NCBI GenBank assembly: GCA_000828835.1
Contig: AP014633.1
Coordinates: forward strand, 496,001-560,000
Direction of reading: 5' to 3'
Length of the DNA: 64,000 bases
Source: Thioploca ingrica
GTDB lineage: Bacteria; Pseudomonadota; Gammaproteobacteria; Beggiatoales; Beggiatoaceae
The notes beneath the pieces were generated by a model, which saw only the letters and a program-made list of their open reading frames with translations, was not told the DNA's origin and ran no database searches. A program made the position numbers and the translations under genes. Below, in pieces: positions 51,992 through 57,628 of the stretch (within the stretch, counting starts at the first letter, position 1; every line of letters begins with the position of its first letter).

Positions 51992-52654
51992 ATGCCCAAA
52001 CTCACTATTGAAATTTTACAACGCGAAGCACAAGCTTTTTCACGAACTGAATCGCATCATCAAGAAAAGAGTCTGTTTGGGATAACTGATGGCAAAGCAG
52101 TTGGCACCTATTTGGAACATAAATTCAAGAATTATTTGAGAGTCAAATATGATTTTGAAGAAGGAAACTCTGCCAGCGGAATAGATTTTCCTGGCTTACC
52201 GGTTGACATGAAAGTGACCAGTATTACCCAACCACAGTCATCATGCCCTTTCAAATCAGCACGGCAAAAAATCTATGGTTTGGGTTACTCGCTATTGGTA
52301 TTTGTTTATGAAAAGGCAGATAATGCCAAATCTAGAACGGCTACCCTGAATATTTTGCATACACTTTTTGTTAACAGTGATAAAACTGCTGATTTTCAGA
52401 TGACCAAAGGTTTGGTGAGCATTTTGGAAAACCAAGGCAACAGAGATGATTTAATTGCCTTTATGTTTGACAAGAACCTGCCAGTAGATGAAATTGAAGC
52501 GAACAAACTGGCTGATGAAATTCTGTCCAATCCGCCAAAGACAGGCTTTCTGACGATTTCAAATGCTCTGCAATGGCGGTTGCAGTATTCAAGAGTGATT
52601 GAGCGTGCCGGTCAGGAAGAAGGTGTTGTTCTGGTTTATCGAGCCAATTTATGA
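51992..52654 (+). CDS. Putative type II restriction endonuclease
   Basis: A 220-residue soluble protein. It carries a PD-(D/E)XK-like core: GTYLEHKFKNYL with a conserved Glu near residue 43, then ASGIDFPGLPVDMKVTS, where two aspartates and a lysine fit the metal site. Its stop overlaps by four bases (ATGA) the start of a DNA methyltransferase, the usual setting of a restriction-modification pair. The recognition sequence cannot be predicted. Its ATG is preceded by an AT-rich stretch without a strong ribosome site. Confidence 0.75.
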   Translation: MPKLTIEILQREAQAFSRTESHHQEKSLFGITDGKAVGTYLEHKFKNYLRVKYDFEEGNSASGIDFPGLPVDMKVTSITQPQSSCPFKSARQKIYGLGYSLLVFVYEKADNAKSRTATLNILHTLFVNSDKTADFQMTKGLVSILENQGNRDDLIAFMFDKNLPVDEIEANKLADEILSNPPKTGFLTISNALQWRLQYSRVIERAGQEEGVVLVYRANL

Positions 52655-54111
52655 ATACTCATATCGAGAAAAACAAGAAAATTGAATATGGAGATTTTCA
52701 GACACCTAAAGAACTGGCAGATTTAGTTTGCCAAAAATTAGTTGAAATTGACGTTTCACCCCATTGTGTCATCGAGCCGACCTGTGGTTTGGGTGCCTTT
52801 CTGGAGTCTGCGACGACAATATTTACTCACACGAATAAATTGGTTGGGGTTGAAGTTAATCTGGCGTATTTAAACCAACTCAAGGTGAGAAGTAAAATTT
52901 TTTCTCATCCAGAACGCCTGGATATCCGCGAGGGTGATTTTTTCAAATTTGAATGGAATAAGTTGCTGAAAGAATTGGATGGAGAAATCTTGGTTTTGGG
53001 GAATTTTCCTTGGATTACTAATGCCACACAAAGCGTAATCAGCGGTTCAAATCTACCCCATAAAACCAATTTTCAGAATCACAGCGGTTTTGATGCTATA
53101 ACGGGTAAAAGTAATTTTGATATTTCCGAATATATGCTTATTAAAGTGGCCGAGTGGTTTCAACATCGTCCAGGCTATCTTGCTATGCTGGTGAAAATAT
53201 CTGTAGCCAGAAAATTTTTAACTCATCTTTATAAAACCAATACCGGCTTATCTTATTCTGCAATTTACCGTATTGATGCAATGAAGCATTTTGGTGCGGC
53301 AGTAGATGCCGGTTTGCTTTATGCTCGTTTTGACCCGTCATTGCATAATTACGATTATGACGTTTTTGATTCATTGTCCAGCCAGTCTCATTATCGCGTT
53401 GGTCATCGGCATGGATTGACTGTAAAAGATTTAGACACCTTCGAAAAACTCGGTTATTTGTTAGGAAATTCCAACGAGAAATGGCGTTCTGGAATTAAGC
53501 ACGATTGTTCTGAAATTATGGAGTTGACGGAAAAAGATGGCAAATTATTTAATGGATTGAATGAACTGGTTGATATCGAGCCGAATTATGTTTATCCATT
53601 AATAAAAGGTTCTGATGTAGCCAATAATAGAATTTCAACAACCCATCGTTTTATACTCGTTACTCAAAAAACAGTTGGAGAACCGACCAAGCCAATCAAA
53701 ACCATGGCTCCTAAAACCTGGGCTTACTTAGAATATCATGCCAATTATTTAGATTCACGTCGAAGTAAAATTTACCAAAATAACCCCCGTTTTTCTATTT
53801 TTGGCGTAGGTTCTTACACCTTTTCTCCGTGGAAAATCGCGATTGGTAGTTTGTATAAAAATCTGAATTTTCGATTAGTTGGACCAACACAAAATAAACC
53901 GATTGTTTTTGATGATACGGTTTACTTCTTGAGTTTTGAGAATTATGAAGAAGCCAAGAAAGTCTTTGATTTTCTCTATTCTCAAGATACACAAAAGTTT
54001 TTATCGACTTTAGTTTTTTGGGAGGATAAACGTCCAATCAAAACCAGCATCTTGAATAGTCTGAAACTCAATGCACGAAAGGCTCTTATTCAACAGCTAC
54101 AATTGTTTTAG
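52651..54111 (+). CDS. Type II N6-adenine DNA methyltransferase
   Basis: A 486-residue modification enzyme. The block YGDFQTPKELADLVCQKL leads to SAM motif I (VIEPTCGLGAFLESA, about residues 44-58). Motif IV reads LGNFPWIT near residue 115, in place of the usual (D/N/S)PP(Y/F/W). The C-terminal half is a target recognition region. It protects DNA from the endonuclease encoded just before. The Phe in place of the first Pro of the catalytic tetrapeptide is unusual but the Asn and aromatic residues stay. Confidence 0.85.
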   Translation: MNTHIEKNKKIEYGDFQTPKELADLVCQKLVEIDVSPHCVIEPTCGLGAFLESATTIFTHTNKLVGVEVNLAYLNQLKVRSKIFSHPERLDIREGDFFKFEWNKLLKELDGEILVLGNFPWITNATQSVISGSNLPHKTNFQNHSGFDAITGKSNFDISEYMLIKVAEWFQHRPGYLAMLVKISVARKFLTHLYKTNTGLSYSAIYRIDAMKHFGAAVDAGLLYARFDPSLHNYDYDVFDSLSSQSHYRVGHRHGLTVKDLDTFEKLGYLLGNSNEKWRSGIKHDCSEIMELTEKDGKLFNGLNELVDIEPNYVYPLIKGSDVANNRISTTHRFILVTQKTVGEPTKPIKTMAPKTWAYLEYHANYLDSRRSKIYQNNPRFSIFGVGSYTFSPWKIAIGSLYKNLNFRLVGPTQNKPIVFDDTVYFLSFENYEEAKKVFDFLYSQDTQKFLSTLVFWEDKRPIKTSILNSLKLNARKALIQQLQLF

Positions 54112-54255: not shown

Positions 54256-54414
54256 TTATTCGGTGGCGCTACTTTCATTTTTCCACTCCTTGAGAGCTGT
54301 TTTAATCACTCGTTTAGCTTGGTTACGTTGGTTAGCTTTGGTTTTAATATGTACACCGCCTTTATGCAAGATAGGCAATCGGGCGAGCGGGTTTCTGATT
54401 TTTCTAATGGGCAT
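54256..54414 (-). CDS. Small basic protein overlapping the unknown 54.4-55.4 kb gene
   Basis: A 52-residue minus-strand frame that starts at ATG 54414 with a good AAGGAG ribosome site seven bases upstream. It begins MPIRKIRNPLARLPILHKGG and ends EWKNESSATE. Its start overlaps the last 11 bases of the larger upstream gene, which implies translational coupling. It is strongly basic (about one residue in four is Lys or Arg). It is a real gene candidate because of the ribosome site, coupling and unbroken frame; function unknown. Confidence 0.65.
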   Translation of the reverse strand: MPIRKIRNPLARLPILHKGGVHIKTKANQRNQAKRVIKTALKEWKNESSATE

Positions 54415-55372
54415 GATAAAGCTCCTTTTTAGTGAGATCTAATTTATACCAAAAGGGGTGATCTATTTTTTTCATGGCTTGACGAAATTTAGTGATTCTT
54501 TGTAAAAATTGCGGTGCTTCTAAAGTGGGATGAAAACAGAATTGTCGTGGTAACTGGGTATATAAAGAACGCGGCGGCTGACATTTTTTAATAGCACAGC
54601 CAGTTTCATAACTATGATAAAAAATGTTATGGATACCGAGTTCATCATGAATAAAATGGAGTGTCGCTGTTAACATCGCTTCATCCCACAATTGGGTATA
54701 AGGTTTGAGGATTTCATTAAAATATTTTTTTAAGTGTTGGCTATCACCTTCCATACCATCGATAAAAATTTCGAGGGGTTCATTATCGTTACTAGTCAAT
54801 ACTTCGCGCAGCTTTTCTTGAGATTCACGGATCCAATCACTTTGGATTTCTTCAATTAAAGCTTCATCGTCCTTAAAATCTAAATCGATACGTGCCCAAG
54901 CTAAGGTTTCACGAAAAAAATTTCGTTGTCCTCGTTTCATAATCGGATGACCGTTACATTTGAACATTGATTCTGTAGTGGGTTTCAGCAACTGGCGGTA
55001 GGGTTGTTCATGTTGGTTAGAAAAATTCAGTTGTAACACTAAATTGTAACCCGGTCGTGAAGTTTGTTGCCAAGTCCGTTGGTAACCGCCCCAAGTGCTT
55101 AGCGTAAGCAAAAAAGTATAGGTGGGTTTATCCCAAACCATATTAAATAGATATCGATTTAGCCAACCGGTGCTGGCGGTGGCAAGGGTTTTTTTTACCA
55201 CCGGGCGCTCGAGTAACCTTGCATAAGCGCTCCGTTTCAAATCAGCCACTTTTATCTCATGCTCAAGCAAGTGAGACAATAATATAAGGGCGTACCGATC
55301 TTTAAAGTAGTCAAATCGGGTTTTGCCTTGAGGTAAACAGGCGATAATTTCATTGACGCTGTCTTTGTCCAT
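54404..55372 (-). CDS. Unknown protein with EEIQSDW motif
   Basis: A 322-residue soluble protein. Blocks include FNMVWDKPTYTFLLTLSTWG, KRGQRNFFRETLAWARIDLD, LIEEIQSDWIRE (about residues 184-195), NIFYHSYETGCAIK and PPRSLYTQLPRQFCFHP. I know no named family for the whole. The EEIQSDW block resembles a motif seen in phage-type polyvalent proteins, which is weak evidence. GAGG precedes the ATG. It sits 153 bases after rtcB on the same strand and overlaps a 52-codon gene. Possible roles are unknown; RNA- or phage-related functions would fit the neighbours. Confidence 0.6.
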   Translation of the reverse strand: MDKDSVNEIIACLPQGKTRFDYFKDRYALILLSHLLEHEIKVADLKRSAYARLLERPVVKKTLATASTGWLNRYLFNMVWDKPTYTFLLTLSTWGGYQRTWQQTSRPGYNLVLQLNFSNQHEQPYRQLLKPTTESMFKCNGHPIMKRGQRNFFRETLAWARIDLDFKDDEALIEEIQSDWIRESQEKLREVLTSNDNEPLEIFIDGMEGDSQHLKKYFNEILKPYTQLWDEAMLTATLHFIHDELGIHNIFYHSYETGCAIKKCQPPRSLYTQLPRQFCFHPTLEAPQFLQRITKFRQAMKKIDHPFWYKLDLTKKELYHAH

Positions 55373-57201: not shown

Positions 57202-57238
57202 AAAAAACCCTGACTAACAGTTGTCAGCCAGGGTTTTA
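57202..57238 (-). terminator. Rho-independent terminator upstream of rtcB
   Basis: On the minus strand AAAACCCTGGCTGACAACTG, then TTAGTCAGGG and seven T form a stem (CCC/GGG and TGAC/GTCA with a small bulge) with a U-tract. It ends transcription coming from the right and lies 42 bases before the rtcB start, so it either ends the putative small RNA or controls entry into rtcB. Confidence 0.75.
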
Positions 57239-57356
57239 ATATTGACCGGGAAGAAAACGACTCTGGAAGACAACTGTAACCATGCCTTCCAGTTCGTTAT
57301 ATGGAAGGCTATGTTTGAGTACGATGAAATCGTTGTAGCATGTGATTATTCTTCCC
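57202..57356 (-). ncRNA. Putative structured small RNA upstream of rtcB
   Basis: Read leftward from 57356, the transcript would begin GGGAAGAA and that octamer pairs perfectly with TTCTTCCC (57255-57248). Inside are two hairpins: ACGAT-TTC-ATCGT (57333-57321) and GCCTTCCA-10-base loop-TGGAAGGC (57309-57284). It ends in a terminator hairpin with seven T. A weak sigma-70-like promoter (TTATCA, 17 bases, TAACAT) lies just upstream. It lies on the same strand as rtcB, 42 bases before it. Bacterial Y RNAs are often encoded near rtcB, but no Ro/Rsr gene is here. It could instead be an rtcB leader with attenuator. Confidence 0.5.
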
Positions 57357-57628
57357 TTTTGATGTTAAACTATAAATAATAAGTTGATAACACACTAAAT
57401 ATTATAAATATACTAAATTAAGTATACTGAGTTACCCTAAAATGTCAAACTTTTTATTGGCGGACTTGCAATGATACAGTAGCCCACCTGAAATGAAGTG
57501 GAATGCGGGAAGCAGATTAGCTTGTCAGTCAAAACAGATGAGGAACGGTAGTCCTGGATTTCGCTGCACTTCATCCAGGCTACATTCGCTACTGCACCTT
57601 ACTTGCTACCCACCTTACTTTAATAATT
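57357..57628. other. Intergenic region between putative RNA and the 57.6 kb gene
   Basis: Contains an AT-rich promoter-like segment (57360-57440), then a dispersed palindrome at 57549-57582 (TAGTCCTGGATTTCGCTGCA, then CTTCATCCAGGCTA). No gene supported. Confidence 0.5.
57549..57582. repeat. Dispersed palindrome, CCTGGAT / ATCCAGG type
   Basis: CCTGGAT and ATCCAGG arms flank a core TTCGCTGCACTTC, which is the same core type, in the opposite orientation, as the GAGCGAAGCGAAACC elements at 36009 and 40367. It belongs to the same short-palindrome family. Confidence 0.7.

Follow-up and report, generated by a model that had tools for sequence, protein, structure and literature searches.

Results

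A folded leader with a short open reading frame precedes rtcB

What is the strongly folded RNA directly ahead of rtcB in Thioploca ingrica, and how would it act on the gene behind it? The window (the whole 64,000-nucleotide stretch of DNA that was analyzed) carries both on the minus strand. An earlier note had described this RNA as an outer octamer pair, two perfect inner hairpins and a U-tracted terminator with a plausible promoter upstream, and each of these elements is present in its place (Table 1). The 201-nt stretch has a folding energy of -57.1 kcal/mol compared with -32.9 ± 4.0 kcal/mol for its shuffles (z = -6.0), and 0 of 200 shuffles folded as well. Promoter-like sites in the region show no excess (5 versus 7.2 in shuffles) and terminator-like sites hardly any (4 versus 2.6), so these two parts rest on their quality and position. 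The element is single-copy in the 4.81-Mb genome by DNA search, the other match being just a 34-base AT-rich piece.

Two features were absent from the earlier note. The first is a leader ORF of 10 codons behind the 5′ octamer, which is Shine-Dalgarno-like (S); the predicted peptide is MLQRFHRTQT with Gln at codon 3. The second is the complementarity between segment C and segment D, the 5′ half of the terminator, and this complementarity is the core of the mechanism. The pairings A:B (the 8-pair inner hairpin), B:C and C:D compete ahead of the terminator D:E, an arrangement typical of leader-peptide attenuators. The other inner hairpin, the 5-pair ACGAT/ATCGT, is probably incidental because it lies inside the leader codons and is absent from more distant relatives, whose upstream regions were read by eye.

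Table 1. Features of the rtcB leader and the genes behind it, in window coordinates.
Feature	Position	Strand	Remark
Promoter-like site, TTGACA-16-TATACT	57448-57421	minus	consensus match only, 11/12 bases
-35 element, TTGACA	57448-57443	minus	spacer to -10 of 16
-10 element, TATACT	57426-57421	minus	
S, octamer GGGAAGAA	57356-57349	minus	Shine-Dalgarno-like, of leader ORF
Leader ORF, ATG CTA CAA CGA TTT CAT CGT ACT CAA ACA TAG	57341-57309	minus	
Segment A, GCCTTCCA	57309-57302	minus	first base is the G of the leader TAG stop
Segment B, TGGAAGGC	57291-57284	minus	partner of A or C
Segment C, ACAGTTGTCTTCCAG	57277-57263	minus	partner of B (terminator freed) or D (antiterminator)
S′, octamer TTCTTCCC	57255-57248	minus	able to pair with Shine-Dalgarno S
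Segment D, CTGGCTGACAACTGT	57231-57217	minus	terminator 5′ arm and loop, complementary to C
Intrinsic terminator D:E	57237-57201	minus	15-pair stem and U tract; rtcB start codon 40 bases past it
rtcB, 544 aa	55526-57160	minus	intein at residues 84-222
322-aa gene of no known family	54404-55372	minus	153 bases downstream of rtcB

We consider it highly probable that the element is a ribosome-controlled (leader-peptide) transcription attenuator of rtcB. This reading is drawn from the sequence, through the parts, their conservation, their covariation and a predicted fold switch, and from it we infer that the ORF is translated, that transcripts terminate or read through in vivo, and what the physiological signal is. 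RNA polymerase would start near 57414, judging by the promoter-like site, and a ribosome would load on the leader ORF. During smooth translation the ribosome at the stop codon would cover A, B:C would form, and D would be left free to build the terminator D:E, keeping rtcB off. A stall at the early codons, whether from damaged or uncharged tRNA or from a damaged or inhibited ribosome, would hold the ribosome on S and off A; A:B would form and C would be freed. Freed C would pair with D, no terminator would form, and rtcB, probably with the next gene, would be transcribed. With no ribosome loaded, S′ would pair with the Shine-Dalgarno sequence and the terminator would be favored again.

The proposed attenuator is conserved ahead of rtcB in the family

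RtcB is present in 35 of the 42 family genomes by protein search, and the attenuator precedes rtcB in 22 of these 35. A covariance model matched 20 of the 42 genomes at E ≤ 1e-3 with the best match directly before rtcB in each; two extra model rows are the opposite strand of two places already counted, and two genomes (G009 and G014) were added to the 20 by reading their upstream regions. In the other 13 rtcB-bearing genomes no such element was seen among the contigs and rtcB copies that were read. At the DNA level, a search of 57 relatives recovered an 87% identical copy upstream of rtcB in the sister species and fragments ahead of rtcB in five others; one more match (G012) lies away from rtcB. 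Two rtcB upstream regions (L019 and L020, of G027 and G003) show by eye a promoter-like site and, immediately behind it, a terminator hairpin, without an intervening leader ORF, and a second rtcB (L035, of G018) has directly upstream, again by eye, a run of near-identical TTATAACGAATCCTTGTAGTTGTTG-like repeats.

Twenty-five attenuators were collected, 22 from the family and three from outside it (L115, L119 and L124). A leader ORF of 8-13 codons stands at the matching position in 25 of 25, a count that is partly selection because the 25 were picked by eye for showing the design. The start codon is ATG in 23, GTG in one and TTG in one. The invariant or nearly invariant columns of the 22-sequence alignment A2 fall nearly all in S, the start, the stop, A, B, C, D, E and the U tract.

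The alternative pairings covary

The earlier note had looked to compensatory changes in relatives as the measure of its fold, and among the 22 sequences such changes are present in C:D, A:B, D:E and B:C. Covariation was computed on alignment A2, whose rows are related by descent, against 500 column shuffles; another alignment (A3), which mixes 22 true with 22 spurious matches, was excluded from all counts. In the antiterminator C:D, 9 of 13 pairs change on both sides, and the share of paired cells is 86%, compared with 17-46% when the partners are slid by 1-3 columns. Two-sided changes occur in 4 of 8 pairs of A:B (93% of cells paired), 7 of 15 pairs of D:E (94%) and 4 of 7 pairs of the weaker B:C (89%); C:D has columns in common with both B:C and D:E, so the counts are not independent. 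The covariation score exceeded all 500 shuffles for C:D, A:B and D:E and was reached by 15 of 500 for B:C. Some measures do not stand out: the number of pair types in C:D (308 of 500 shuffles as high) and in A:B (93 of 500), and the two-sided pairs of D:E (66 of 500). B:C is weaker throughout, with 12 to 95 of 500 shuffles as high on four measures and 2 of 500 on a fifth.

S:S′ is poorly paired on alignment A1 (60.8% of cells). The MAFFT alignment of all 22 sequences misregisters the leader start codon in some rows, and the Shine-Dalgarno pairing was therefore judged by partner swapping. The mean pairing energy of S:S′ was -14.0 kcal/mol with a sequence's own partner and -9.7 kcal/mol with swapped partners; for C:D the values were -13.2 and -10.4 kcal/mol. 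For both pairings 0 of 20,000 permutations, which ignore kinship, were as good. Among all candidate partners, a sequence's own one ranked first in just 7 of 25 rows for S:S′ and in 9 of 25 for C:D.

Ribosome position shifts the predicted fold

The transcript to the end of D was folded in silico with the ribosome footprint held unpaired, using the 22 family leaders plus L115, L119 and L124. Pairing of D with the C region had a mean probability of 0.63 when codon 3 occupied the A site, compared with 0.10 for the stop codon in that site and 0.20 in the absence of a ribosome, and it was higher at codon 3 than at the stop codon in 25 of 25 leaders. The difference between these two positions averaged 0.53 for the real sequences and 0.14 when the C-to-D linker was shuffled. 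Shuffled linkers matched the real value of their own sequence in 38 of 500 cases overall and in 5 of 20 for the window's leader. Once complete, the RNA has the terminator as its preferred equilibrium fold in nearly every ribosome state, so the switch must be kinetic and decided by timing.

The leader codons are Gln-rich and mixed

Gln accounts for 36 of 202 codons (17.8%) in the 22 family leaders compared with a 4.7% background (codons 2-13 of 41 window ORFs). At least one Gln occurs in 19 of the 22 leaders, and it occupies codon 3 in 11. Ala and Val are absent from these leaders, and codons starting with G make up 5% versus 25%. Outside the family, 20 detector matches reduce to 18 distinct leaders when near-duplicates are counted once; Asn, with 24 of 183 codons, and Gln, with 22, are the most enriched there, and G-starting codons make up 14% versus 29%. 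The leaders are related by descent, which the p-values for both sets ignore. The G-poverty may just keep the leader ORF unstructured. A single sensed amino acid is not supported: the codons are mixed and none is present throughout the 22 family leaders. The lack of an amino acid common to all leaders favors a general stall sensor, and our best reading is a sensor with a bias, Gln-rich but of mixed codons, that would couple RNA repair to translation trouble.

A more specific version is speculative and, in our judgment, unlikely to be right. The leader ORF would be a bait: with Gln codons foremost, and Asn and His codons besides, it would sample the tRNAs destroyed by anticodon nucleases and other RNA-cutting toxins, and the lack of those tRNAs would halt the ribosome and turn the ligase on. 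Less probable still is an amino acid-specific attenuator of the trp or his kind that senses charged tRNA-Gln, or tRNA-Gln and tRNA-Asn, with rtcB answering starvation for that amino acid. The Gln excess in the family leaders, its frequency at codon 3 and the Asn and Gln enrichment elsewhere speak for it. Against it, Gln is wholly absent from 3 of the 22 family leaders, its position and the codon mix vary, the Gln counts are inflated by the shared descent of the leaders, and the regulated gene encodes an RNA ligase rather than an amino acid enzyme.

The leader matches no known RNA family

The earlier note had offered three guesses about the RNA: a Y-like RNA, a repair-linked RNA and an attenuating leader of rtcB. 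Of these the attenuator agrees with the evidence and the Y-like RNA does not. No Rfam family matched the folded RNA at its gathering score, which sets aside the other known RNA families as well; the best sub-threshold match is rli38, a Listeria sRNA, with 34.9 bits of the 49 needed (E = 0.0028). Y RNA and YrlA were rejected because no Rfam Y RNA matched and TROVE/Rsr was not found in the genome. A tRNA search of the window found none. A stable trans-acting small RNA of any kind with its 3′ end at the terminator, lying near rtcB by accident, would account for the strong fold with its terminator, and according to the earlier note Rsr and Y RNAs adjoin rtcB in some bacteria. We regard it as very improbable. 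The compensatory changes fit mutually exclusive pairings beside a leader ORF that recurs among relatives, which argues for a ribosome-controlled attenuator and not a stable small RNA, and all 20 of the 20 model-bearing family genomes have the match before rtcB. The terminated leader may nevertheless be stable and have a side function.

Riboswitches and protein-read leaders also use antiterminator and terminator alternatives, but a reader other than the ribosome, a protein or small molecule such as RtcB itself or broken RNA, has equally little to recommend it: the ORF with its Shine-Dalgarno sequence, its 8-13 codons and its stop near A recur while the ORF sequence changes, and the conserved columns of A2 lie in the switch parts and not in an unpaired core.

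The design recurs outside the family with other letters

RtcB was found in 66 of 185 sampled genomes of the class. Among 17 fetched upstream regions of E. coli-type genes, L115, L119 and L124 carry the complete design in other letters, and L117 is possibly a decayed version of it. In named genomes the scan covered the 80 best rtcB loci from a longer, capped list; three of the 80 had too little upstream sequence, leaving 77 that were scored. A terminator-like site was detected in 42 of these, a leader ORF with it in 40, and 21 passed the fold-switch score. The corresponding numbers for 268 control upstream regions of other genes at the same loci were 11, 6 and 2, with the cut of 0.25 fixed ahead of the control run. 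The 21 positives are calls of an automatic detector, not individual hand analyses, and L183 among them is a family member counted above. The positives include Marinobacter (L196, L204 and L211), Thiofilum flexile (L212), Steroidobacter (L218), Agitococcus (L222), Kangiella (L239), Microbulbifer (L251), Massilia (L252) and Hahella (L256). The detector is insensitive, since three family members received 0.10 (L180), 0.07 (L181) and no score (L182). Thiothrix (L199) and Paucimonas (L240) appear by eye to be additional cases. As judged from sequence features, the design in other letters precedes rtcB elsewhere in Gamma- and Betaproteobacteria.

Acinetobacter leaders fit the idea and not the exact wiring

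The available text of an RNA-seq study of tigecycline-treated A. baumannii gives rtcB and the gene directly downstream as the two most induced genes, at 252-fold, and its authors raise the possibility of a toxin-antitoxin system or of a reaction to blocked tRNA (PMC7652931). Minocycline raises rtcB 2.6-fold according to the accessible part of another report (PMC9741440). A. pittii (L259), A. lactucae (L246) and three further loci (L241, L243 and L249) combine a leader ORF with a terminator and an antiterminator of the CGAAUGC/GCAUUCG type. The difference in C:D probability between codon 3 and the stop codon is small in these leaders (0.03 for L241, 0.27 for L243, 0.10 for L246, 0.02 for L249 and -0.01 for L259), so the fold model does not explain the Acinetobacter wiring. 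In L241, L243, L246 and L249 the region around the leader start is able to pair with a downstream element, and both sides change together (GACAUC/GAUGUC, ACAAC/GUUGU and CGACA/UGUCG), which suggests a variant wiring. The A. baumannii induction, together with leaders taken from Acinetobacter loci other than A. baumannii, supports the general idea of the attenuator and not its exact wiring.

rtcB contains an intein and is followed by a gene of no known family

The rtcB intein is in-frame and was recognized by Pfam Intein_splicing; the sister genome (G001) has no intein. In nine other family genomes the rtcB matches are split at about the same place within one longer frame. The 322-aa gene behind rtcB is probably on the same transcript. 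Its product matched no Pfam or NCBIfam family. In 19 of the best 80 named loci, tblastn places a homologue on the rtcB strand and at most about 0.7 kb from that gene; 7 of the 19 have a detected attenuator. The predicted structure is confident (pLDDT 85.9) but gave nothing under E = 0.001. Its top PDB matches are for the most part GNAT acetyltransferases, the best at E = 0.034, and its top viral matches are large phage proteins of unclear name, the best at E = 0.0033. The protein is a possible partner of RtcB. Farther along, positions 51992-54111 of the window hold a restriction endonuclease (NCBIfam NF052465, above cut-off) followed by a DNA methylase-like gene (a weak Pfam N6_Mtase match under its cut-off); the two probably form a type II restriction-modification pair.

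Discussion

Attenuators of the trp and his operons combine a short ORF with the A:B, B:C, C:D and D:E logic and a U-tailed terminator. The rtcB leader shares this logic, and its predicted state with no ribosome resembles the untranslated off state of the trp attenuators. It differs from them in having no run of codons for one amino acid and in preceding a gene for RNA repair, not for biosynthesis.

The nearest system is PA5471.1-armZ of Pseudomonas aeruginosa. According to the available parts of two papers, armZ is controlled by leader-peptide attenuation through ribosome stalling, and its inducers are ribosome-targeting antibiotics and tRNA damage from loss of Cca (PMC12057347, PMC13041342). 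In the same excerpts ArmZ rises when PA5471.1 carries an early stop at codon 3 or when the leader region is deleted (PMC12057347, PMC13041342). As given there, the early-stop result fits the attenuator model, and the deletion is uninformative because it removes more than the ORF. Both leaders would attenuate a gene of the RtcB superfamily and both have Gln at codon 3, which these sources describe as important in PA5471.1 (PMC12057347, PMC13041342). The targets differ, ArmZ being the anti-repressor of an efflux operon and the window's RtcB a standard RNA ligase. The ArmZ-like protein of one relative (L167) belongs to the release_rtcB subfamily TIGR03073 (612.8 bits), and the window's RtcB falls below the cut-off of that subfamily (154.1 versus 271.8).

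We do not claim homology with the PA5471.1 leader, because the leaders before ArmZ-like genes of other Pseudomonadaceae are a different 13-mer. Twenty regions from other Pseudomonadaceae were compared; 18 have a leader, L167 starts too near the gene, and L176 lies before a standard rtcB. The 18 ArmZ-like genes have 13-codon leaders such as MQALITLCRSRLA, and 16 of the 18 share LITLCRSRL. The window's MLQRFHRTQT differs from these 13-mers, so that only a shared principle is claimed, with PA5471.1 itself either outside the compared leaders or not recognized among them. The ArmZ-like leaders (L158-L166, L168-L175 and L177, of which L175 and L177 deviate) have hairpins downstream. With 18 such genes carrying a 13-codon leader, the PA5471.1-type leader seems widespread in Pseudomonadaceae.

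The rtcBA operons of E. coli and Salmonella encode the same enzyme under the sigma-54 activator RtcR, whose CARF domain senses RNA, whereas the window has a sigma-70-like promoter and a predicted cis RNA switch. The accessible text of two reports links the RtcR-controlled enzyme to RNA damage and ribosome-targeting drugs (PMC12606134, PMC7790460). Among the 42 family genomes RtcR occurs in two (G016 and G030), whose rtcB upstream regions were read and have no attenuator; it was not found in the window's genome or in any attenuator-bearing family genome. RtcA occurs in 13 of the 42, and in the window's genome the copy (C1:3211577) lies 2.7 Mb from rtcB. TROVE/Rsr occurs in three (G023, G060 and G061), all attenuator-bearing. 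In Anabaena, the available part of the report describes rtcB as repressed by TrcR and released under translation stress (PMC10272220); TrcR is a DNA-binding repressor, unlike the RNA switch of the window. A search of titles and abstract beginnings in the open PMC literature found no description of an rtcB attenuator, the armZ paper being the nearest, and none appears in the available parts of PMC1586002 or PMC8297930.

For bacteria that lack RtcR, a stall-sensing attenuator would be a simple answer to the problem of timing RtcB, with failing translation itself as the signal. It is a possible mechanism for the 252-fold rtcB induction that tops the A. baumannii tigecycline response in the available text (PMC7652931). 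The armZ system would be one instance of a broader control of RtcB-type genes by leader peptides. If the leader ORF is a bait for damaged tRNAs, RtcB would be regulated by its own substrate damage via translation, in place of RtcR, and the design would have arisen or been rebuilt many times, in unrelated sequences, across Gamma- and Betaproteobacteria. The attenuator by itself would make the repair target of RtcB testable with a reporter, because the toxin or drug that flips the switch would name the damage.
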